Below, piece by piece: positions 41,192 to 52,276 of a DNA stretch of 64,000 bases (positions are counted from its first letter, which is position 1; every line of letters starts with the position of its first letter). This stretch comes from Flavobacterium sp. N502536 (GTDB lineage Bacteria; Bacteroidota; Bacteroidia; Flavobacteriales; Flavobacteriaceae). A program made the translations under genes and the position numbers. The stretch spans positions 1,984,001 to 2,048,000 of the forward strand of contig NZ_CP110011.1 in assembly GCF_025947345.1 (NCBI RefSeq). The letters run 5' to 3'. The notes beneath the pieces are model-generated. The model did not search any database, had not been told where the DNA came from, and saw only the letters and a list, made by a program, of their open reading frames with translations.

Positions 41192-42373
41192 TTATGATTT
41201 AAATGCTGGAATTCCAGTTACATCCATACCGGTTATCAAGAGATGAATGTCATGCGTTCCTTCATAAGTAATCACACTTTCAAGATTCATCATATGGCGC
41301 ATGATCGAGTATTCGCCTGTAATACCCATTCCGCCCAACATTTGTCTTGCTTCACGTGCAATGTGTATGGCCATATCCACATTATTACGTTTGGCCATTG
41401 AGATTTGTGCAGTAGTAGCTTTTCCTTCGTTACGTAAAACACCTAAACGCCAGGTTAATAATTGCGCTTTTGTGATTTCGGTAATCATTTCGGCTAATTT
41501 TTTCTGTTGCAACTGCGTTCCTCCAATTGGTTTCCCAAATTGAATTCTTTCTTTGGCATAACGTAAAGCAGTGTCGTAACAATCCATAGCAGCTCCGATG
41601 GCTCCCCAGGCAATTCCGTATCGTGCAGAATCTAAGCACCCAAGAGGTGCTCCAAGTCCCGACTTATTAGGTAATAGATTTTCTTTAGGAACTTTTACAT
41701 TGTCAAAAATTAATTCTCCGGTCGAAGAAGCTCTAAGTGACCATTTATTATGGGTCTCAGGAGTTGTAAAACCTTCCATGCCGCGTTCAACGATTAAACC
41801 GTGAATTCTTCCTTCTTCATCTTTTGCCCAAACGATCGCAATATCTGCGAAAGGAGCATTTGAGATCCACATTTTGGCACCATTTAAAAGATAGTGATCT
41901 CCCATATCTTTGAAATTAGTAATCATACTTCCCGGGTCAGAACCATGATCCGGTTCTGTCAAACCAAAGCATCCCATAAATTCTCCGGTAGCCAGTTTGG
42001 GTAAGTATTTCATTCGTTGCTCTTCATTTCCATACTTCCAAATAGGATACATTACTAGTGAAGATTGAACTGAAGAAGTCGATCGAACACCTGAATCTCC
42101 ACGTTCTATTTCCTGCATGATTAAACCATAAGAAATTTGATCCAGACCTGCACCTCCGTACTCTACCGGAATATAAGGTCCGAAACCGCCAATTTCTCCA
42201 AGTCCTTTTATAATTTGTGTTGGAAATTCTGCTTTTTGGGCATATTCTTCTATAATAGGAGAAACTTCTCTCTTGACCCAGGCACGTGCTGATTCGCGAA
42301 CTAATTTGTGTTCGTCTGTCAATAAGTCATCTAGGTTGTAATAATCCGGTGCTTGAAATAGGTCTGGTTTCAT
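41192..42373 (-). CDS. gcdH: Glutaryl-CoA dehydrogenase
   Basis: 393 residues. The sequence follows glutaryl-CoA dehydrogenases closely: VRSTSSVQSSLVMYPIWKYG (with the substrate-binding Arg), GCFGLTEPDHGSDPGSM, WSLRASSTGELIFDNVKVP, ARYGIAWGAIG, and the catalytic base in VITYEGTHDIH. It would oxidise and decarboxylate glutaryl-CoA to crotonyl-CoA in lysine/tryptophan breakdown. No other gene of that pathway lies nearby. Single-gene transcript ending at the hairpin 41131-41160. Confidence 0.88.
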   Translation of the reverse strand: MKPDLFQAPDYYNLDDLLTDEHKLVRESARAWVKREVSPIIEEYAQKAEFPTQIIKGLGEIGGFGPYIPVEYGGAGLDQISYGLIMQEIERGDSGVRSTSSVQSSLVMYPIWKYGNEEQRMKYLPKLATGEFMGCFGLTEPDHGSDPGSMITNFKDMGDHYLLNGAKMWISNAPFADIAIVWAKDEEGRIHGLIVERGMEGFTTPETHNKWSLRASSTGELIFDNVKVPKENLLPNKSGLGAPLGCLDSARYGIAWGAIGAAMDCYDTALRYAKERIQFGKPIGGTQLQQKKLAEMITEITKAQLLTWRLGVLRNEGKATTAQISMAKRNNVDMAIHIAREARQMLGGMGITGEYSIMRHMMNLESVITYEGTHDIHLLITGMDVTGIPAFKS

Positions 42374-42537
42374 TTTTGTTAGTTTTATTATACAAATCTA
42401 CGTAATATAAATATAACAAAATACAGTTAAATTGTTATATTTTTATAAATACTGAAGAAGAAAAATAGTATAAACACAAATTAATTTTAGTTTATTGCGA
42501 ATTTATAAGCTATTTTTGAGATTCAAAAACAAAATGA

Positions 42538-44283
42538 ATGAGGCTGATCATCTCTTTTATACTCTTTTTTGTTCTGAATAATACCTTTTCTCAAGAGAAA
42601 AAGGTTTTTACGGAACAGGAGTACTTAATATTGCAAGACAAAATTCGACTAACGGCAAATGCCAATGTTGACAGTTCGATTGTATATGCTAGTCAGTTGG
42701 CGAAATCCAATAGTAATAAACATTTGGCTTTTGCTAATGCAGCATTGTCTTATTTGATTCAGTTAAAAGGAAATACAGCAAAATCTAAAGAAAAATACCA
42801 GTTAGCCTTAAAATCCTTAGAAAAAATGCCCGATGGGCAGGAAAAAACACAGCTTAGGTCCTACTTGTACAATTATGCCGGATTATCCGAATGGAAAAGG
42901 GAGAACTATAGCGACGCCATCGAAAATTACCAGCAGGGCATAAAGCTTTCGATACAGATTGACGATATTATTCAAATTGTAAAGTTTAAGAGTAACATTG
43001 CGGCTATAAATGTTGCTGTAGGTAATTACCGGCTTGCGATAAAGGACTTGCGGAGTCTTAGCGAATTTGTTGATAAAAACGAAAGCGTTTATACCAAACA
43101 GCAATACCTCAATAATAAGAGTAATATCAATCTTAGTTTAGCAGGATCATATGAGAGTTTTTATATGAAAGATCCTAAAAAGAAGATTTTACTGGACTCT
43201 GCCGAGTATTTCTATCAAAAAACCATTAGTTACTCTCAAAATTTTCCCGACAATAAGATTGTGGCAAAACTTAGTTTAGGTAATATTTACAGCGAATTAA
43301 AAGAGTACAAAAATGCCGAAAAGACCTACTACGATATCATCTTTTTGGCCAATCAAAACAGTATGCTGGATATTTTATGTACGACTCATTACAATTTGGG
43401 GGACTTGTATTTTAATATCAAAAAGTATGATAAAGCATTGGTGTTCTTTAAAAAATCAGACTCTATAGGCAACATTACTAAAACGAATCAGGTTGATCAT
43501 CTGAAGTCCAATTACTATCAGGCAAAAATTTACAACATCCTTAAAGAGCCTGAACTGGCCTATAAACACTCAAAAATTTACCTGGATAATTACGAAAAAT
43601 CGGAATCAAAATTAAATGATGAGGTTTTAGAAGTAAATTACAAACTTGGCGTTGGTGATTTGACTAACGAGATGGTTACCATTCAGGAGAAATACAAATA
43701 CGACGTTTTTCTGAACAAAGCGCTAAAAGTATTTTATGTCGTTTTATTCATAGGAATTGTCTTTCTGCTGATCAAAAACATACGCGATAAAAATAAGGCG
43801 CATAAAAAGATGAATGCTTTAATTGAAGAGTTCAAAGCTAATTTAGAAAAGAAAAACGAGCCCGAACCGGAACGAGAGACCATTCTTGAATCTGAAGAAA
43901 TACAGTCTAAGAAAGAGAATGTCAATTTAAGTATTGATGAGGCAAAAGAGAATAAAATTGTAGAAAAACTGTTGGCTTTAGAAAGTAAACAGGAATATTT
44001 ACATGCCGATTTTACGCTGCCATATGTGGCTAAAAAAATAAAAACCAACACCACCTATTTGTCTTATGTCGTAAACAAACGATTTGGTAAATCTTTTGGG
44101 GAATATTCAAATGAGCTGAAAATTAACTATGTGATTAATGAAATGATAACAAATCATATGTATCGTAAATATTCAACTCAGGCCATTGCCGAAAGTGTTG
44201 GTTTTAAAAATGCGGTATCTTTTGCTAAATCATTTCGCAAAAGAACTGGAGTGTCCCCAGCTCAATTTGCGAACAATATCTAA
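42538..44283 (+). CDS. Membrane-spanning TPR regulator with AraC-type HTH
   Basis: 581 residues: signal-like N-terminus (MRLIISFILFFVLNNTFSQ), a long TPR solenoid (~40-380, periplasmic by topology), one transmembrane helix (~396-417, FYVVLFIGIVFLLI), a charged linker, and an AraC-type DNA-binding domain (~470-581, LPYVAKKIKTNTTYLSYVVNKRFGK, STQAIAESVGFKNAVSFAKSF). The sensor is outside and the DNA-binding part inside, so it is a one-component receptor. It ends 16 nt from the stop of the last peptide of the double-glycine array, convergently. By position it is the natural candidate to sense the exported peptides. Confidence 0.88.
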   Translation: MRLIISFILFFVLNNTFSQEKKVFTEQEYLILQDKIRLTANANVDSSIVYASQLAKSNSNKHLAFANAALSYLIQLKGNTAKSKEKYQLALKSLEKMPDGQEKTQLRSYLYNYAGLSEWKRENYSDAIENYQQGIKLSIQIDDIIQIVKFKSNIAAINVAVGNYRLAIKDLRSLSEFVDKNESVYTKQQYLNNKSNINLSLAGSYESFYMKDPKKKILLDSAEYFYQKTISYSQNFPDNKIVAKLSLGNIYSELKEYKNAEKTYYDIIFLANQNSMLDILCTTHYNLGDLYFNIKKYDKALVFFKKSDSIGNITKTNQVDHLKSNYYQAKIYNILKEPELAYKHSKIYLDNYEKSESKLNDEVLEVNYKLGVGDLTNEMVTIQEKYKYDVFLNKALKVFYVVLFIGIVFLLIKNIRDKNKAHKKMNALIEEFKANLEKKNEPEPERETILESEEIQSKKENVNLSIDEAKENKIVEKLLALESKQEYLHADFTLPYVAKKIKTNTTYLSYVVNKRFGKSFGEYSNELKINYVINEMITNHMYRKYSTQAIAESVGFKNAVSFAKSFRKRTGVSPAQFANNI

Positions 44284-44298
44284 AACAATTTGTTTGAA

Positions 44299-44445
44299 TC
44301 AAGGATGCCCTTCAACATCGGTACTTCCTTTTCCGTTCCCTCTGATAGTATCACCAGGATCGTCACCGCCCCCAATTGTTTGTTGTTCTCTTCTTGATAA
44401 TTTTTCGTTTTCAAAATTTTTGAATTCTATTTTTTTCGTTTTCAT
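44299..44445 (-). CDS. Double-glycine peptide 6 of array (extended tail)
   Basis: 48 residues, starting MKTKKIEFKNFENEKLSRREQ and having QQTIGGGDD at the leader end. The core carries PGDTIRGNGKGST and then DVEGHP, so the stop used by copies 1-4 has been lost and six residues added. Leader LSRREQQTIGG fits the shared LSxxEQKxxxGG pattern. Stop TGA lies 16 nt from the TPR-AraC gene. Last and most divergent in leader among the six. Function unknown; a secreted peptide is inferred. Confidence 0.8.
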   Translation of the reverse strand: MKTKKIEFKNFENEKLSRREQQTIGGGDDPGDTIRGNGKGSTDVEGHP

Positions 44446-44448
44446 TTT

Positions 44449-44586
44449 TTAAATATTTACTGGTTGTGTAGACCCTTTTCCATTACCTCTGTTAGTATCA
44501 TTGTCACCTCCTCGAACAGCTTTTTGTTCTTTTTTTGAAAGTGTATTGCTCGTAAAAGCTTCGAAATTTAGTTTTTTATTTTCCAT
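44449..44586 (-). CDS. Double-glycine peptide 5 of array (variant core)
   Basis: 45 residues, starting MENKKLNFEAFTSNTLSKKE. Leader end QKAVRGG, then DNDTNRGNGKGSTQPVNI. It keeps RGNGKGST but the PGDTI part of the core is replaced and five residues follow the normal end. Only 3 nt separate its stop from the start of copy 6. Probably secreted by the C39 exporter at 48084 because it shares the leader motif. Confidence 0.82.
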   Translation of the reverse strand: MENKKLNFEAFTSNTLSKKEQKAVRGGDNDTNRGNGKGSTQPVNI

Positions 44587-44605
44587 TTTGTTAGAATTTT
44601 AGTTG

Positions 44606-44749
44606 TTAGGTAGATCCTTTTCCATTTCCTCTGATGGTATCACCAGGAATACCAGATTCTTCTTCTCCTCCTCCTTTAACCGTTTTTTGTTCTTTTTTTG
44701 AAAGTATATTGTGGGTGAAATCTTCGATGTTCAATTTTTTATTTTCCAT
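44606..44749 (-). CDS. Double-glycine peptide 4 of array
   Basis: 47 residues. Leader MENKKLNIEDFTHNILSKKE then QKTVKGGG; core EEESGIPGDTIRGNGKGST ends exactly at the stop. It differs from copy 3 at only four residues, one being Cys to Gly before IPGDTI, so this copy has no cysteine. A 19-20 nt linker (CTAAAATTCTAAT-like) precedes each of copies 3-5 and probably carries the translation signal. Confidence 0.87.
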   Translation of the reverse strand: MENKKLNIEDFTHNILSKKEQKTVKGGGEEESGIPGDTIRGNGKGST

Positions 44750-44769
44750 TTTTATTAGAATTTTAATTG

Positions 44770-44913
44770 TTAGGTAGATCCTTTTCCGTTTCCTCTGATG
44801 GTGTCACCAGGAATGCAAGATTCTTCTTCTCCACCACCTTTAACCGTTTTTTGTTCTTTTTTTGAAAGCGTATGATGGGTGAAATCTTCGATGTTTAATT
44901 TTTTATTTTCCAT
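44770..44913 (-). CDS. Double-glycine peptide 3 of array
   Basis: 47 residues. Leader MENKKLNIEDFTHHTLSKKE then QKTVKGGG; core EEESCIPGDTIRGNGKGST with a single cysteine. The near-identity to copies 2 and 4 at DNA level indicates recent tandem duplication. The acidic EEE run directly after the glycine motif is shared by copies 2-4 only. Confidence 0.87.
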   Translation of the reverse strand: MENKKLNIEDFTHHTLSKKEQKTVKGGGEEESCIPGDTIRGNGKGST

Positions 44914-44932
44914 TTTATTAGAATTTTAGTTG

Positions 44933-45079
44933 TTAGGTAGACCCTTTTCCATTTCCTCTGATAGTGTCACCAGGAATACAAGATTGTTCTTCTTCTCCTC
45001 CACCTCTAACCGTTTTTTGTTCTTTTTTTGAAAGTGTACTAAGGGAGAAATCTTCGATGTTTAATTTTTTATTTTCCAT
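44933..45079 (-). CDS. Double-glycine peptide 2 of array
   Basis: 48 residues. Leader MENKKLNIEDFSLSTLSKKE then QKTVRGGG; core EEEQSCIPGDTIRGNGKGST, one cysteine. Conserved hydrophobic and LSKKEQK positions match double-glycine leaders cleaved by C39 peptidases. Second gene of the array and probably cotranscribed with copy 1. Confidence 0.87.
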   Translation of the reverse strand: MENKKLNIEDFSLSTLSKKEQKTVRGGGEEEQSCIPGDTIRGNGKGST

Positions 45080-45099
45080 CTTTTTTTGATTTTTAATGA

Positions 45100-45237
45100 T
45101 TAGTTAGACCCTTTTCCGTTGCCTCTAATTGTGTCTCCAGGAACATTAGAATCATCTCCTCCGCGAACCGTTTTTTGCTCTTTTTTAGATAGTTTTTCTA
45201 ATTGAAAATCTTCAAATTTTTGCGCTTGATTTATCAT
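45100..45237 (-). CDS. Double-glycine peptide 1 of array (promoter-proximal)
   Basis: 45 residues. Leader MINQAQKFEDFQLEKLSKKE then QKTVRGG; core DDSNVPGDTIRGNGKGSN, no cysteine and Asn instead of Thr at the end. It is the most divergent at its very N-terminus and lies nearest the promoter region, so it may be the founder copy. A TAnnTTTG match (45267-45274) sits 30 nt upstream. Confidence 0.85.
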   Translation of the reverse strand: MINQAQKFEDFQLEKLSKKEQKTVRGGDDSNVPGDTIRGNGKGSN

Positions 45238-45266
45238 GTTTGTTAGTATTAGGATTATTGATATAC

Positions 45267-45274
45267 CAAAACTA
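45267..45274 (-). promoter_or_regulatory. TAnnTTTG-like element upstream of peptide 1
   Basis: Minus-strand TAGTTTTG matches the -7 consensus and is 30 nt upstream of the first array ATG. No clear TTG -33 lies at the expected place, so the promoter may need an activator. Confidence 0.4.
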
Positions 45275-45335
45275 TATAAAAAGGAAAACGCTTAATCGAG
45301 AATAGGCTTTTTGGGCTTTTTAACAAAATATTTTT

Positions 45336-45368
45336 CAATTAAGTAATTGATAATCAATTACTTAATTG
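45336..45368. promoter_or_regulatory. Perfect 33-bp palindrome, operator candidate
   Basis: CAATTAAGTAATTGAT, a central A, then its exact reverse complement. Each arm holds a smaller dyad CAATTA-N2-TAATTG (45336-45349 and 45355-45368), 19 bp apart centre to centre. It lies in the divergent gap between the peptide array and the VKOR-exporter genes. No T-run follows, so it is better explained as a binding site for a dimeric regulator than as a terminator. Confidence 0.65.
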
Positions 45369-45497
45369 TTTCATTCAGACTGATATAATTTATAAATTGT
45401 ATGTAGTATAATTAATAAAATGTGTACTACCAGCGCTTTTTTCTCAATAAAAACAACAATATTTGCAGTGTAATTATGATTTTAAAGACTCGAAAAG

Positions 45498-47069
45498 ATG
45501 TTAAAACTTGTCCAAAAATTTCTACAAATAAACAAGTACTCGGAGATCAAAAATGAGTTTAAAGATTTGTTTCTTTCTCATCCAAATTATCCTAGTTTAT
45601 TTGCGATAACAGATTCTCTGGATTTACTGTCTGTAGAGAATGCTGCGATAAGAGTTCCGAAGGAGCAAATAGTAGATTTGCCTTCAAATTTTTTGGCTTA
45701 TTTCAAAGAAGAGTTAATATTGGTTGAAAAGGCAAAGAATTTTGTTCGAATCAATACAGTGAAAAAAGGAAGTCATAAAATGGCGTATGAAAAGTTCTTA
45801 TTAGATTGGAATGGAGTTATCGTGGCAATTGAGCCAAACAATGTTGTTGCGAGAGAGAATTTGAAAATGGAGTTCAGCTGGTTGAAATATGGTTTACCGC
45901 TTTTGTTATTAGTGGGATTGTCATTTTTTTATAATACTTACAGTTCATTCAGCCTTGTTTTTTTAGCGACCTCTATTTTAGGGTTTATTGTAAGCGTTTT
46001 TATTGTTCAGGAAAAATTAGGGTTTAAGAATACTATTGTTTCAAAACTTTGCAATTTGAGTTCAAACTCGTCTTGTAGTTCTGTTATCAATAACAAAGAA
46101 GGAAATGAAAGTAAATGGATTAGTTTTCCAGACCTGCCATTAATGTTCTTTGGGGCCAGTTTGATTGCAATTTTGGTTAAACCATTAGAATCGTCAATTT
46201 TTGTTGGTTTTTTAAGCTTATTGGCCATACCGGTTATAGTGTCTTCGATTTGGATTCAAAAATTTGAGATTCAAAGATGGTGCGTAATGTGTTTAATGGT
46301 ATCTGCTTTGATTTTTGTACAAAGTGTGATATGGTTTGCGTCAGATCTGTTTACGTTGAGTTTTAGTTTTGCCGAAATTTTTCCATTCTTGTTCTCGTTG
46401 GTACTCTTGGTTCCGATCTGGGCAGTTTTGAAAACAATCATAACCAGCATTTTGGGAACGGAAAATTCGCTTAAAGAGATGAAAAAGTTTAAAAGAAACT
46501 ATTCTTTATTGAACTTCTTATCTAAAAAAGTGCCTCATATAAATGGACTTGAGGATTTAAGAGGCTTGAATTTTGGAAATAGAAACGCTGCTGTTAAACT
46601 ATCGGTAATCATTAGCCCTAGTTGTGCACATTGTCATAAAACATTTCAGGAGGCATTTGATTTAGTCTTGAGATTTCCGGATAAGATAAACCTGAATGTG
46701 TTGTTTAACGTGAATCCTGAAAATATCGATAACCCATATAAAGTAGTTGTCGAAAGGCTTTTAACCATAAACAGAGCTACACCAGGGAAAACAGTGGAAG
46801 CGATTTCAGATTGGCACATTAAAAACATGAGCCTTAAAAAATGGTTGAAAAAATGGCATGTTGATTCAGTAAGCATGATGATCAGTCAGGAGATAAACAA
46901 ACAATACGAATGGTGTGCTAAGAATGATTTTAATTATACACCGATTAAAATTGTAAACGATAAAGTTTTTCCGGCAGAGTATGAGCTGGGTGAACTAAAA
47001 TATTTTCTGAACGATTATATTGAAGAGAAAGAAACTAAAGAAACGATGGTTTTGGAAAAAACAGCGTAG
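45498..47069 (+). CDS. Pseudo-C39/VKOR/thioredoxin fusion oxidoreductase
   Basis: 523 residues in three parts. Residues 1-115 resemble a C39 peptidase fold (HPNYPSLFAITDSLDLLSVEN, WNGVIVAIEPN) but lack the catalytic Cys. Residues ~130-310 are a VKOR-like membrane domain with C185, C193 and the redox pair C262-VM-C265. Residues ~355-510 are a thioredoxin-like domain with C376-AH-C379. Such VKOR-Trx fusions oxidise periplasmic thiols, as DsbB/DsbA do. It precedes a six-cysteine double-glycine peptide and is the likely folding enzyme for it. The inactive C39 part may bind leader peptides. Confidence 0.87.
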   Translation: MLKLVQKFLQINKYSEIKNEFKDLFLSHPNYPSLFAITDSLDLLSVENAAIRVPKEQIVDLPSNFLAYFKEELILVEKAKNFVRINTVKKGSHKMAYEKFLLDWNGVIVAIEPNNVVARENLKMEFSWLKYGLPLLLLVGLSFFYNTYSSFSLVFLATSILGFIVSVFIVQEKLGFKNTIVSKLCNLSSNSSCSSVINNKEGNESKWISFPDLPLMFFGASLIAILVKPLESSIFVGFLSLLAIPVIVSSIWIQKFEIQRWCVMCLMVSALIFVQSVIWFASDLFTLSFSFAEIFPFLFSLVLLVPIWAVLKTIITSILGTENSLKEMKKFKRNYSLLNFLSKKVPHINGLEDLRGLNFGNRNAAVKLSVIISPSCAHCHKTFQEAFDLVLRFPDKINLNVLFNVNPENIDNPYKVVVERLLTINRATPGKTVEAISDWHIKNMSLKKWLKKWHVDSVSMMISQEINKQYEWCAKNDFNYTPIKIVNDKVFPAEYELGELKYFLNDYIEEKETKETMVLEKTA

Positions 47070-47155
47070 TATTTAAGAAATAGTGACAACAGACAGAAAC
47101 TTCAGCTGTCTTAAAATGACTGAGGTGCGAATTCAAAAAACAAAAACCTTTAGTT

Positions 47156-47353
47156 ATGTTAAAAATCATTTTAAACTTAGAAGGTGCTCAAAGGCTAAGT
47201 GCATACGAGCAAAAAGGGATTGTTGGAGGACAGCCGATTAATCCGCCGAAAAAATGTTGTGTTTGCCCGGGTAAAGGTTCGTCTACTCTAGTAGCCTGTG
47301 ATTCGATTTGTTCGAATGGTACAATACCGGCAGTGCTTCCGGATTGTTTATAG
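47156..47353 (+). CDS. Cysteine-rich double-glycine peptide (bacteriocin-like precursor)
   Basis: 65 residues. Leader MLKIILNLEGAQRLSAYEQK then GIVGG; the core from residue 26 has cysteines at 34, 35, 37, 48, 52 and 64, enough for three disulfides. LSxxEQKxxxGG is shared with the six array peptides, so the same leader peptidase probably handles all. It lies 86 nt after the VKOR/thioredoxin gene. No lanthionine, radical-SAM or cyclodehydratase enzyme is nearby, so disulfides are the only modification suggested. Confidence 0.87.
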   Translation: MLKIILNLEGAQRLSAYEQKGIVGGQPINPPKKCCVCPGKGSSTLVACDSICSNGTIPAVLPDCL

Positions 47354-48083
47354 TCCTAAAAGGATAAGAAATGACGAAAGTTGTTTTTGATATTAATTTT
47401 TAGCGTTTTAATAGAAGTATGAAATAGCCTTTTTTAGAATTTAGTCATGTTTTTTTTAATTTGTAGGCGCTCGATCGTGGAACATTGAGCAAATTTCCCG
47501 ACATTGATGATTGGTGTAGGGATTCTTAGGAAATTGGTCACTGTGTTGATTTTAATTGGTTAGGGTTAACCAGTGCCATGTCCTAAAGAAATTATATTTC
47601 TAATAAATATGTTTTTAAATACTCTAAACAGAGAAGATTAATTTCTTCTCTGTTTTTTTTTGGTTTATTTTTAGGTGTTTAGTTCATTTTTGATTTCTGT
47701 ATCTTAAATGTATTCGTAAAGTCAACGGAGAGATTCAGAGACAGAGGTTTAATTAGCTGAAATGTATAAGTGGTAGTTTTAGTAGCAGAGGTTAAAAAAA
47801 CGGGAATAAAGGCTCTAAATGATTTAATTGGTTTAATATTGTGATAGAGTGGTGCTATCGCTTTTCAGCAGGAACAAATGAAGCAGGTAAATTGGAGCTC
47901 GTATTTTAGATCAGAGGTTGATAATTTTAATAATTTTAGTTTTCAAAGTGGATTGAAGTTTTTTTAACTATAAATCAAAAGGAAAAACAATTAATTACGA
48001 ATTTTTGGCGGGTAAATATTATATTTTTGTAAGAGAAAGAATGGCAGGGCTATTTGCATATAAATGATTAACTCTAAATTAAA
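47354..48083. other. 730-nt gap without a supported gene
   Basis: Between the cysteine-rich peptide and the ABC exporter. I read both strands for further double-glycine peptides and found none. It holds a good terminator at 47626-47660 and, at 48064-48087, a seven-codon ORF (MINSKLN) whose TGA overlaps the exporter's TTG start. The rest shows no recognisable feature. Confidence 0.6.
47626..47660 (+). terminator. Rho-independent terminator
   Basis: AAACAGAGAAGA (47626-47637) pairs perfectly with TCTTCTCTGTTT (47644-47655) across 6 nt, then a T-run. It ends the VKOR/peptide transcript, so the exporter genes have their own promoter or depend on readthrough. Confidence 0.88.
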
Positions 48084-50276
48084 TTGAAAAAATTCACCAA
48101 TTATAGGCAGGTCGATTATAAAGATTGCGGGCCAACATGTTTAAAAATAATAGCAAAGCATTACGGTAAAACAATCAATATACAGGAGTTGAGAGATTTC
48201 AGCGAAACAACTCGTGAAGGAAGTAATCTGCTTTTTTTGAGTGATGCAGCTGAGAAAATTGGTTTTAGAACTTTAGGCGTAAAATTAAATCTGGAAAGAT
48301 TAGAAGAGGCTCCATTGCCTTGTATTCTGCATTGGAACAAAAATCATTATGTAGTACTCTACAAAATTAAAAAAAACAGCTACTATATTTCCGATCCGGC
48401 TTTTGGCCTGATTGAATACAATAAAGAAGATTTTATTAAATTTTGGATCGGAAACAATGCCGATGAATCTACTCAGGAAGGAATAGCATTGCTGATTGAA
48501 GCTACTCCTAAATTTTTCCAGTCTGATTTTGATAAAGAGGACAATCGCGGACTTGGTTTTGGATTGTTGTCGCAATATGTGCTTCGGTACAAGTCGTTTT
48601 TAATACAGTTAAGTATAGGATTGCTGGCAAGTACTTTACTACAGCTGATCTTTCCGTTTTTAACCCAAAGTATTGTTGATGTTGGGATTCAGAATCAGAA
48701 CATTCATTTTATCTATCTGATACTTTTTGCCCAATTGTTCCTTTTTGCGGGAAGAACAGGTTTGGAGTTGATCAGAAGCTGGATTCTATTACACCTTTCT
48801 ACCCGAATCAATATTTCACTAATCTCAGATTTCTTTATTAAACTAATGAATCTGCCCATTTCGTTTTTCGATGTGCGAATGACAGGCGATATCATGCAGC
48901 GAATTAACGATCATCACAGGATCGAAAAAATTCTAACCACATCGTCATTAAATGTTTTGTTCTCAACTATCAATATGGTTGTTATGGGAGGCGTTCTGGC
49001 TTACTTTAATCTCAAGATCTTTTTGGTGTTTTTTGCGGGAAGCCTGCTTTATTTTGGATGGATTACCTTATTTTTAAAAAGAAGAGAAGTATTGGATTAC
49101 AAGCGTTTTGCTGAAGTCTCCAGCGAGCAAAGTAAAGTGATGGAGCTGATTAATGGAATGCAGGAAATAAAGCTTCACAATGCCGAAAAGCAAAAACGCT
49201 GGGGTTGGGAATACATACAGGCAAGACTCTTTAGGGTCTCAATAAAAGGCTTAGTTTTAGAGCAGACACAAACGATTGGTTCTTCTGTAATCAACGAGTT
49301 AAAAAACATTTTTATTATATTTCTTTCGGCAAAACTGGTAATTGACGGCTCCATCACACTGGGGATGATGTTGGCAATCAGTTCGATCGTAGGAAGTTTA
49401 AACGGTCCCATTACGCAGCTAATCGAATTTGTCAGAGAGCTGCAGGATGCCAAAATATCATTGGCCAGATTATCGGAAATCCATGAAAAAGAAGACGAAA
49501 CACAACAGGAAGTTTTTCAAACTAATGATGTTCCTTTTGATTCGGATATCGATATCAATAACCTTTCTTATCGATATTTGGGTTCGGATATTCCTGTTCT
49601 GGAGGATTTAACGCTGAAAATCCCCGCCAATAAAGTAACGGCAATAGTAGGAGTCAGCGGAAGCGGAAAAACAACTTTGATGAAACTCCTGTTGAAATTC
49701 TACGAACCTGAAAAAGGCGAGATCAACATTGGAAATGCACAATTAAAAAATATCTCGCAAAAAGCCTGGCGGTCCAATATTGGTGCTGTGATGCAGGAAG
49801 GCTTTATTTTTAGTGACACCATCGCGAATAACATTGCAATTGGCGTTGATAAAGTAGATAAAGAGCGCTTGGTTTATGCGGCTGATGTAGCCAACATAAA
49901 AGAATATATTACAGGTTTACCATTGGGATACAATACCAAAATAGGTTCTGAAGGGTTGGGAATGAGTACAGGGCAGAAACAACGTTTGTTAATTGCCAGA
50001 GCAGTTTATAAAAATCCCGAAATATTGTTTTTTGACGAAGCTACATCGGCATTGGATGCGAACAATGAAAAAGAAATAATGCAAAAGCTGGATGTTTTCT
50101 TTAAGGACAAAACCGTCGTAGTTATTGCGCATCGCTTGAGTACAGTTATGAATGCTGATCAAATTGTGGTTTTAGACAAAGGAAAAATCATTGAAATTGG
50201 CAGCCATACTGTTTTGGTACAGCAAAAAGGAAATTATTTCGAACTGGTTAAGAATCAATTGCAATTAGGAAATTAA
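48084..50276 (+). CDS. C39 peptidase-containing ABC exporter for double-glycine peptides
   Basis: 730 residues. N-terminal C39 peptidase with full triad: C15 (YKDCGPTCLKIIAKHYGK), H88 (WNKNHYVV) and D104 (YISDPAFG). Six-helix exporter domain (~170-450), then an ATPase with Walker A GVSGSGKTT (523-531), signature GMSTGQKQRLLIARA and Walker B ILFFDEATSALD. This is the family that cuts after Gly-Gly and exports the peptide. The frame has no ATG before the conserved N-terminus; the start is TTG 48084. HlyD follows after 3 nt. The seven-peptide set nearby provides the obvious substrates. Confidence 0.95.
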   Translation: MKKFTNYRQVDYKDCGPTCLKIIAKHYGKTINIQELRDFSETTREGSNLLFLSDAAEKIGFRTLGVKLNLERLEEAPLPCILHWNKNHYVVLYKIKKNSYYISDPAFGLIEYNKEDFIKFWIGNNADESTQEGIALLIEATPKFFQSDFDKEDNRGLGFGLLSQYVLRYKSFLIQLSIGLLASTLLQLIFPFLTQSIVDVGIQNQNIHFIYLILFAQLFLFAGRTGLELIRSWILLHLSTRINISLISDFFIKLMNLPISFFDVRMTGDIMQRINDHHRIEKILTTSSLNVLFSTINMVVMGGVLAYFNLKIFLVFFAGSLLYFGWITLFLKRREVLDYKRFAEVSSEQSKVMELINGMQEIKLHNAEKQKRWGWEYIQARLFRVSIKGLVLEQTQTIGSSVINELKNIFIIFLSAKLVIDGSITLGMMLAISSIVGSLNGPITQLIEFVRELQDAKISLARLSEIHEKEDETQQEVFQTNDVPFDSDIDINNLSYRYLGSDIPVLEDLTLKIPANKVTAIVGVSGSGKTTLMKLLLKFYEPEKGEINIGNAQLKNISQKAWRSNIGAVMQEGFIFSDTIANNIAIGVDKVDKERLVYAADVANIKEYITGLPLGYNTKIGSEGLGMSTGQKQRLLIARAVYKNPEILFFDEATSALDANNEKEIMQKLDVFFKDKTVVVIAHRLSTVMNADQIVVLDKGKIIEIGSHTVLVQQKGNYFELVKNQLQLGN

Positions 50277-50279
50277 ATC

Positions 50280-51572
50280 ATGACAAAAGATACTACATTT
50301 GAACTAAGAAGTGAAGAAGTTCAGGACATTCTCACCAAAGTACCGCATTGGATGATTCGTTGGGGTACCGTACTGATATTTGTGATCATTTCTATGCTTT
50401 TTTTCGTGTCCTGGTTTATCAAATATCCGGATGTTGTTACGACTCAGATCGTCATTACAACCAATATTCCTCCAGAGAAAATAGTTTCCAAATCTTCGGG
50501 CCGTATTGAAGCAATTCTGGTCAAAGACAAATCGATTGTTTCCAAAAACAGTACACTTGCCATCATTGAAAACACGGCCAATTATAAAGATGTTTTTTTG
50601 TTGGAGAAAATTATTGCAGAATACAATATTAACGATCCGAAAAAAGCTTTTCCTTTTGAATTGTTGAAAAACACCCAGTTGGGCGAGATTGAAAGCGCCT
50701 TTGCTGTTTTTCAGAAAGACTATCAGGCAGAACAATTAAATAAAAATTTGCAGCCTTTTGAAGTCGAAAATCGGGCGCAGATTTCGGAGAAAGTTCAGAT
50801 CAAAGACAGATTGGAAATTTTGCAGCAGCAAAAAGTAATTAACGAAAGCGAATTACAGCTTCAGAAAAATGAAATTGCAAGATTCGAAACCTTATTCAAT
50901 AAAGGAATCATCTCTGCGCAGGAGATGGAAGTGAAAAAACTGGGATATCTTCAGGCGCAAAAGAATTATAGAGGCCTTTTGTCTTCTATTTCTCAGTTAA
51001 AGTCGGCTTTAATTACCAATTCCAAATTGAGTCAGAACTCGCAAATCAGTGGTACCAAGGAAGAAGTTACTTTAGGAAGAAATATGGCGCAGTCTTTTTA
51101 TCAGCTTAAAAAAGTAATAAAAGACTGGGAGCTGGCCTATGCTTTAAAATCATCTGTAAGCGGAGTAGTTACTTTTTTACAGGTTTGGACAGAGAATCAA
51201 ACCATTAGTGTCGGAGATAATGTTTTTTCGATTATTCCGGATACTAAAAATGGTTTTGTAGGTAAGGTAAAGGCGCCGGCATTAAATTCAGGGAAAATAA
51301 AAGTAGGGCAGATGGTCAACATTAGATTGGCGAATTTTCCCGACCGGGAATTTGGAGTGCTAAAAGGAAAAATCCGAAACATCTCTCTGGTTCCTGATAA
51401 AGATGGAAATTTATTATTAGACGTAGCACTTCCAAACGGACTGGAAACGTCGTATAAAAAACAAATTGTTTTTCAGCAGGAAATGAAAGGAAGCGCCGAG
51501 ATTGTAACCGAAGATTTACGCTTAATCGAGAGGATTCTGTATCAGTTTAAAAGTATGTTTGAGCAGGTCTAA
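50280..51572 (+). CDS. HlyD family secretion adaptor
   Basis: 430 residues. One N-terminal membrane helix (~28-48, GTVLIFVIISMLFFVSWFI), lipoyl half-motif (SKSSGRIEAILVKDKSIVSKNSTLA), a long coiled coil (~150-280), second lipoyl half (LKSSVSGVVTFLQVWTENQTIS) and C-terminal beta-barrel. It is the partner of the C39 ABC exporter three nucleotides upstream. Peptides would cross the outer membrane through a TolC-like protein that is not encoded in this locus. The last 4 nt overlap the convergent methyltransferase gene. Confidence 0.93.
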   Translation: MTKDTTFELRSEEVQDILTKVPHWMIRWGTVLIFVIISMLFFVSWFIKYPDVVTTQIVITTNIPPEKIVSKSSGRIEAILVKDKSIVSKNSTLAIIENTANYKDVFLLEKIIAEYNINDPKKAFPFELLKNTQLGEIESAFAVFQKDYQAEQLNKNLQPFEVENRAQISEKVQIKDRLEILQQQKVINESELQLQKNEIARFETLFNKGIISAQEMEVKKLGYLQAQKNYRGLLSSISQLKSALITNSKLSQNSQISGTKEEVTLGRNMAQSFYQLKKVIKDWELAYALKSSVSGVVTFLQVWTENQTISVGDNVFSIIPDTKNGFVGKVKAPALNSGKIKVGQMVNIRLANFPDREFGVLKGKIRNISLVPDKDGNLLLDVALPNGLETSYKKQIVFQQEMKGSAEIVTEDLRLIERILYQFKSMFEQV

Positions 51573-52276
51573 AATTTCAGGTAAAAATCTTTAGTGAGTT
51601 CAATGTATTCCGGAGTATAGACATGTCTTTCGATTTCGATCGTTAATTCATCTGTCTCTGTTTCCGGGACTTCATTTCGGCTAAAAGCAATCAAACTTCT
51701 TTTAATCTCTGAAGTTGGAGTACCTTTTACGCGTGTAATTTTGATCGGGTATAATTCTGATTCTTTGGCCAGAGCAACAAATTTTTCTTCTTCTTTATAA
51801 GGAAGAATTACTGCAAAAATCCCGTTTTCTGAAAGCAATAAATCAGCAGCCTCGATTAATTCTTCAAAAGGCATTGCGTCCTGAAAACGTGCCAGATCGC
51901 GCTGTTCGTTTTCGGTTTTGTAATTCTCGGAGTAAAAAGGTGGATTTGAAACAATCAAATCGTATTCGTCTTCCGGTTCTTCGATAAATTCATCTAATCC
52001 GGCATGGAAACAAAATAAGCGGTCTCCCCACGGAGAGTTTTCAAAATTATCAACAGCCTGTTCGTAAGCATCTTCATCAATTTCAAGTGCGTCAATCTGC
52101 TCCGCAGGAGTGCGTTGTGCCAGCATCAAAGCAATAATTCCGGTTCCGGCTCCAATGTCTAAAACGCTAAACGGATTATGACTTATGGGTGCCCAGGAGC
52201 CCAGTAAAACACCATCAGTACCCACTTTCATAGCGGTTTTGTCTTGTTGAACTGAAAATTGTTTGAATGTAAACAT
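51569..52276 (-). CDS. tRNA1(Val) adenine-37 N6-methyltransferase-like (TrmN6/YfiC family)
   Basis: 235 residues from ATG 52276, which gives the family-typical start MFTFKQFSVQQDKTAMKVGTDG; an upstream in-frame extension runs into a TTGGAAT repeat and is not used. SAM-binding motif LDIGAGTGIIALMLAQRT and the adenine-methyltransferase NPPF motif in IVSNPPFYSENYK are present. It would methylate adenine-37 of tRNA-Val. Convergent with hlyD and overlapping it by 4 nt. Confidence 0.9.
   Translation of the reverse strand: MFTFKQFSVQQDKTAMKVGTDGVLLGSWAPISHNPFSVLDIGAGTGIIALMLAQRTPAEQIDALEIDEDAYEQAVDNFENSPWGDRLFCFHAGLDEFIEEPEDEYDLIVSNPPFYSENYKTENEQRDLARFQDAMPFEELIEAADLLLSENGIFAVILPYKEEEKFVALAKESELYPIKITRVKGTPTSEIKRSLIAFSRNEVPETETDELTIEIERHVYTPEYIELTKDFYLKF

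Follow-up and report, generated by a model that had tools for sequence, protein, structure and literature searches.

A tandem array of double-glycine peptides and an adjacent TPR-AraC protein as a candidate peptide quorum-sensing system in Flavobacterium

What might a bacterium do with six related short peptides encoded one after another, and which protein, if any, responds to them? The question is raised by a locus of Flavobacterium sp. N502536, located in a stretch of 64,000 nucleotides (contig NZ_CP110011.1, positions 1,984,001 to 2,048,000; hereafter the window), in which an array of six double-glycine peptides lies next to a gene that we call REG. We propose, at a probability of roughly three in four, that REG reads the array peptides, which would be exported as a linear pheromone and sensed outside the cytoplasm by a one-component receptor that joins tetratricopeptide repeats (TPR) to an AraC-type domain and controls a bacteriocin-type locus. 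The proposal draws on gene order, purifying selection on a peptide motif, divergence of this motif between genomes, its covariation with the TPR domain, a unique conserved DNA element and the modelled TPR fold. An initial annotation had described the peptides as secreted signals or toxins, and overlooked that a TPR-AraC protein lies next to them, that their motif differs between species and that a conserved DNA element is nearby.

The coordinates of the six tandem minus-strand double-glycine open reading frames (ORFs) of 45-48 residues, annotated as lying 3-20 nucleotides (nt) apart, were confirmed; the intergenic gaps are 20, 19, 20, 19 and 3 nt. From ORFs and their alignment we defined peptide 1 (45 amino acids (aa), 45100..45237) with the core DDSNVPGDTIRGNGKGSN, peptide 2 (48 aa, 44933..45079) with GEEEQSCIPGDTIRGNGKGST, peptide 3 (47 aa, 44770..44913) with GEEESCIPGDTIRGNGKGST, peptide 4 (47 aa, 44606..44749) with GEEESGIPGDTIRGNGKGST, peptide 5 (45 aa, 44449..44586) with DNDTNRGNGKGSTQPVNI and peptide 6 (48 aa, 44299..44445) with DDPGDTIRGNGKGSTDVEGHP. 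F-x4-LS-x2-EQ and a leader-terminal GG are common to all six, and such a double-glycine leader is a trait shared with streptococcal ComC/BlpC-type pheromones. Sixteen alignment columns are invariant, including D-T-x-RGNGKGS, and RGNGKGS(T/N) is present in every copy. Contrary to the earlier description, the conserved end is thus not lost from copies 5 and 6: RGNGKGST is present in both, followed by a short C-terminal extension (QPVNI and DVEGHP, respectively); copy 5 lacks PG and has DTN in place of DTI, while PGDTIRGNGKGST is intact in copy 6.

We defined the motif as the best-matching 9-mers among copies and, because this choice favours high identity, ran between-locus pairs identically as a control. 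In the window array these 9-mers differ at a nonsynonymous proportion (pN) of 0.026 versus a synonymous one (pS) of 0.536. The motif copies use different synonymous codons, which implies that selection on the peptide, rather than recent copying, holds them identical. Among copies within genomes the ratio of nonsynonymous to synonymous divergence (dN/dS) of the motif is 0.12, i.e. purifying; a ratio near 1, named at the outset as a sign against genuine reading frames, was not seen, the value being one for copies within genomes and not between genomes. A motif defined solely by Gly content had earlier proved to be out of register, with a dN of 0.308 and a dS of 0.576 that offered no useful contrast, and was replaced.

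A profile built from the six peptides, a search suggested in the initial annotation, matched 49 database proteins, five of which have no outside source (the window's own or near-identical ones), and found peptides in 97 of 398 Flavobacterium genomes, the source genome included. The idea that these ORFs are too short for gene callers held only in part, given that NCBI names many relatives 'rSAM-modified peptide' or 'TIGR04149 family rSAM-modified RiPP'. REG (E 1e-60) is likewise present in 97 of the 398 genomes, and 91 have both. The window and 70 fetched loci carry a close REG (best copy 62-94% identical), and convergent peptides accompany it in 70 of these 71, with 1-8 per locus and 212 in total; the last locus is cut by the contig end. 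Beside diverged REG genes (36-51% identity), a convergent peptide was found in 9/20 loci of a first set (7 by pattern, 2 by profile) and in 9/10 of a further set, one being displaced, and these peptides have a Gly/Pro/Asn-rich core. In four diverged loci the peptide scan found the expected gap empty; a profile search recovered variants in L211 and L212 and the displaced peptide in L213, and L217 had no convergent peptide by either approach. The L211 and L212 variants have GK or GS at the expected GG position, and their cleavage may differ. Outside the genus, REG at E 1e-50 was found in no other genus among 90 of the order, and few REG-like proteins had double-glycine neighbours.

The motif is private to species. 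In 54 arrays, identity among copies is 95.1% for the best-matching 9-mers versus 75.0% for the leaders, while between loci it is about 54% for 9-mers and leaders alike. Examples across loci are RGNGKGS, DPSKGDGKGN, EPTKGNGNGN, DPGKATGNGNG, DPIRGGGGGTGTP, EPKKGGGGNGNN, YPIKTNGGGNG and NPIRGTGSGNG, and the cores of 60 loci fall into 44 clusters at a cut of 0.3 and 33 at 0.4. Pherotypes are signal variants usually matched by receptor changes, according to the accessible text of PMC7595303; judged by sequence, a motif constant within and variable between genomes is the pherotype pattern. The fifth peptide of L144 contains the motif twice in its core (IDPSKGDGKGNTTQTQYIDPSKGDGKGNTL), as if two signals were encoded per precursor.

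REG (42538..44283, plus strand, 581 aa) is our candidate receptor/regulator on the basis of Pfam matches, an AlphaFold2 model, fold matches, co-occurrence and synteny. It is convergent with the array, its 3' end lying 15 nt from peptide 6. The protein consists of a signal-peptide-like N-terminus, a TPR superhelix (helices 26-362; TPR_1 1e-12), a hydrophobic stretch at 395-413 that would form a membrane helix, and a helix-turn-helix (HTH) domain at about 466-581, which belongs to the AraC family (HTH_18 1.4e-12, 48.2 bits versus a cut-off of 33.6). The signal-peptide-like N-terminus and the membrane helix between TPR and HTH predict that the TPR domain should face outside the cytoplasm. In the AlphaFold2 model (mean predicted local distance difference test score, pLDDT, 82), the TPR part resembles peptide-binding TPR proteins, the Rap and NprR pheromone receptors included; we did not count the fold match by itself as proof. 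Between species the HTH is nearly invariant, while the TPR domain diverges.

Several REG variants were observed. Tandem REG genes of 2-3 copies occur in 10 of the 71 loci (L157, L158, L160, L161, L164, L168, L172, L173, L176, L177), and all ten have a single array peptide versus 6 of the 60 single-REG loci with peptides. Extra copies in L168, L172, L176 and L177 match residues 1 to about 418-449 only, i.e. they are without the HTH part. REG is found in two overlapping frames, possibly as a frameshifted copy, at L037:10380-12127 and in G602 (L131, L139). The best other REG-like HTH of genome G000 lies in a 257-aa frame (G000:C1:358369-358758; L094, L249) with two hydrophobic GG small ORFs nearby.

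If REG reads the peptides, motif and TPR domain should vary jointly. Mantel tests were performed on 60 loci, 11 of the 71 being left out for missing VKOR, PCAT, HlyD or peptides. With four neighbouring genes partialled out, core and TPR distances were correlated (r 0.378, p 0.001), and likewise with synonymous distances partialled out (0.286, p 0.001), while no correlation of the core with VKOR, PCAT or the flanking acyl-CoA dehydrogenase was observed. In 30 disjoint species pairs, which share no branch of the control-gene tree, the core-TPR partial rank correlation was 0.63 (p 0.0003). In L154 and L156 two flanking genes are 95-96% identical, the motifs differ and the REG genes are only 79.5% identical. 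Covarying TPR sites mapped onto the groove showed no clear enrichment. A tree test with pherotype labels was uninformative: with a private motif in almost all species, the control and TPR trees need near-equal numbers of changes.

A second conserved feature is a 26-bp element, ATACTACATACAATTTATAAATTATA (45384..45409, minus strand; consensus ATAC(T/C)ACATACAATTTATAAATTATA), which lies between the array and the VKOR gene and is, by its conservation and single copy, a candidate operator. With at most two mismatches it occurs in 69 of the 398 genomes, once each, all with close REG and peptides, and in none of those without them. Of the two misses among the 71 close-REG genomes, one has three mismatches (G122, L171), and in the other the contig ends before the site (G414, L169). 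No second copy within three mismatches exists in the source genome. In 9 of 10 aligned diverged loci the core AATTTATAAAT precedes the VKOR gene. Because both the HTH and this single site are nearly invariant, their sequences suggest that REG acts at the element.

The array and REG are part of a fixed Flavobacterium locus, together with an exporter, a VKOR-thioredoxin protein and Cys-rich double-glycine peptides. Within the limits of the stretches available, gene order is the same in 35 named Flavobacterium loci, and REG was seen in 34 of them, the remaining contig stopping inside the array. Divergent from the array, the VKOR-thioredoxin protein (45498..47069, plus strand; VKOR 1.4e-11) has a C39 match at its N-terminus (0.0029) and a Thioredoxin_4 match (0.023), both below cut-offs; the protein, with this weak C39-like N-terminus, might bind leaders or oxidise Cys-rich peptides. 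It is followed on the same strand by a 65-aa Cys-rich double-glycine peptide (47156..47353; ORF and synteny), a bacteriocin-like effector candidate without NCBIfam or Pfam match, by a C39 peptidase-containing ABC transporter (PCAT; 48084..50276, Peptidase_C39 2e-35, ABC_tran 3e-30), whose matches to bacteriocin ABC models are below the curated cut-offs, and by a HlyD-type membrane-fusion partner (50280..51572, HlyD_3 2.5e-13). A C39-ABC exporter in conserved synteny is thus present, as in ComC/BlpC-type systems, and from its sequence PCAT presumably cuts the peptides behind GG and exports them. In 15 of the 35 loci L029-L063 (e.g. L034, L042, L058) we noticed, on the VKOR side, a Cys-rich peptide IP(E/D)CW...AIEAGC(V/I)L...R(L/V)CC, which has changed little across many species, in contrast to the array motif.

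Our working model is as follows. The array products would be pro-pheromones, whose leader would be cut after GG by the C39 domain of PCAT, and the PCAT-HlyD exporter would release a linear Gly-rich peptide, in which the C-terminal motif of about 10 residues (DTIRGNGKGS in the window) would be the specific signal. REG would bind the peptide in the groove of its TPR superhelix in the periplasm and relay the signal through a single membrane helix to its AraC-type HTH in the cytoplasm, whose site of action would be the 26-bp element, present once between array and VKOR gene. The array would thereby be upregulated by its own signal in a positive feedback, and the divergent VKOR/bacteriocin/export side would also be turned up, which would give the bacteriocin-type locus a self-contained peptide quorum-sensing switch. 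Joint diversification of motif and TPR domain would have produced the pherotypes of the individual species, with little change in HTH and operator.

The array could instead encode bacteriocins that stay unmodified, or secreted effectors, with copies multiplied to raise the dose, and REG would regulate the locus but sense something else. The double-glycine leader, the adjacent PCAT, the bacteriocin-like peptides nearby and arrays of up to 8 copies are in agreement with this. The composition of the cores, however, is not that of an amphipathic or disulfide class II-type bacteriocin. Among 211 of the 212 peptides (one in L199 was dropped for masked bases), cores are short (12-37 residues, mean 21), none has at least two Cys, the mean grand average of hydropathy (GRAVY) is -1.35 and 1% of residues are aromatic, while on the VKOR side (54/71 loci) 109 of 110 double-glycine cores have at least two Cys, with a GRAVY of 0.0 and 9.5% aromatic residues. 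Because array cores are linear, hydrophilic and Cys-poor, unlike the VKOR-side peptides, they are less likely to be pore-forming or disulfide bacteriocins, so that the signal half of the initial proposal is favoured over the toxin half. Moreover, a private motif for each species, identical in all copies, suits a receptor ligand better than a toxin, and the motif follows the TPR domain of REG. We therefore consider this alternative unlikely. The simplest reading of the sequences is that signal peptides come from the array side and bacteriocin-like disulfide effectors from the VKOR side, where a redox protein and the common exporter are also encoded.

It is more improbable still that the peptides and REG are co-inherited neighbours that do not bind each other; REG would then respond to a different ligand or to envelope stress, and coevolution would be mimicked by shared recombination. 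Several observations nevertheless speak for this and against reception of the peptides by REG. The leader tracks the TPR domain as the core does (0.62 in the same 30 pairs), REG synonymous sites track the core too, and HlyD distance correlates with that of the core in each of the two Mantel data sets (0.096, p 0.029; 0.252, p 0.001), though not in the 30 pairs. In L203/L206 the motif changed with few REG changes. REG and array are clearly inherited together as a cassette, whose exchange is visible in L154/L156, and this accounts for part of the covariation. On the other hand, the signal persists after synonymous and leader distances are removed, core and leader each retaining a correlation of about 0.5 with the TPR domain once the other is removed; the motif is the most constrained part within genomes, and the TPR fold is also that of pheromone receptors.

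A third alternative, in which the array encodes precursors of a radical-SAM-modified RiPP (ribosomally synthesized and post-translationally modified peptide) of the TIGR04149 (GG_sam_targ_CFB) type, is hardly credible. In its favour are the NCBI names of relatives, a leader match above the curated cut-off (25 bits) in 1/5 scanned copies (1/6 in the genome search) and, in the accessible text of PMC4573289, Bacteroides TIGR04149 peptides adjoining radical-SAM genes. Against it, the model covers mostly the leader, which is alike, while the core is unlike; about 92 kb separate the array from the closest radical-SAM gene detected in the genome; and, in line with the initial annotation, Pfam scans of 15 other proteins encoded in the locus and its flanks gave no RiPP-modifying domain, no genome-wide search for ATP-grasp or lanthionine-synthetase families having been made.

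Peptide pheromones are textbook Gram-positive signals, and the RRNPP receptors (Rap, NprR, PlcR, Rgg, PrgX) read re-imported peptide. The modelled REG shares with the latter the TPR superhelix. RRNPP receptors are intracellular according to the accessible text of PMC10075063, whose RRNPP discussion there covers Firmicutes genomes only, while the TPR domain of REG is predicted to be extracytoplasmic. The streptococcal BlpC/BlpH and ComC/ComD systems resemble the locus in their double-glycine pro-pheromone, C39-ABC exporter and linked bacteriocin-like peptides, and in pherotypes with a matching receptor change, as proposed here (accessible text of PMC7595303). Their receptor, however, is a histidine kinase with a response regulator, while the adjacent gene here encodes a one-component TPR-membrane helix-AraC HTH protein, and the Flavobacterium locus is Gram-negative with up to 8 pro-pheromone copies. 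ToxR, TcpP and Bacteroides hybrid regulators, like REG, unite an outside sensor, a membrane helix and an inside DNA-binding domain in one polypeptide. Transmembrane transcription regulators are reported to be enriched in Bacteroidota (PMC10269533, in whose accessible main text AraC, TPR and tetratricopeptide do not occur as words); REG differs in its TPR sensor and in its proposed ligand, a self-made peptide.

No comparable peptide-pheromone system in Bacteroidota was found in open PMC full texts, where most subscription papers and preprints are missing. The receptor architecture, which we found described nowhere, appears new, the overall type, peptide quorum sensing, being known. We lean towards regarding the system as an undescribed class of peptide quorum sensing, defined by double-glycine pro-pheromone arrays, an extracytoplasmic TPR receptor with one membrane helix and an AraC activator, dozens of pherotypes, a near-invariant DNA-binding domain and a single operator. 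If true, Bacteroidota would gain a language that is encoded in the genome and private to each species, its sender, exporter, receptor and target site all being known; it could be tested with a synthetic peptide of some 10 residues, and natural pherotype swaps would be ready for specificity mapping. Peptides annotated as radical-SAM RiPPs would gain a function, and one membrane-bound TPR-AraC family a ligand class.

Finally, we inspected the DNA of the array and its surroundings. Rfam gave no match at gathering scores within 42000-52000, and a sigma-70 scan of 44200-45560 returned 5 promoter-like sites versus 4.9 expected from shuffles. A perfect 15-bp AT-rich inverted repeat lies at 45336-45368, between the 26-bp element and peptide 1, and is not conserved in other aligned loci. 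Before peptide 1, TAGTTTTG (45267..45274, minus strand) is a possible -7 box, based on the Bacteroidota-type consensus TAnnTTTG, and TAG(T/C)TTTG is present in 16 of 24 aligned upstream regions.
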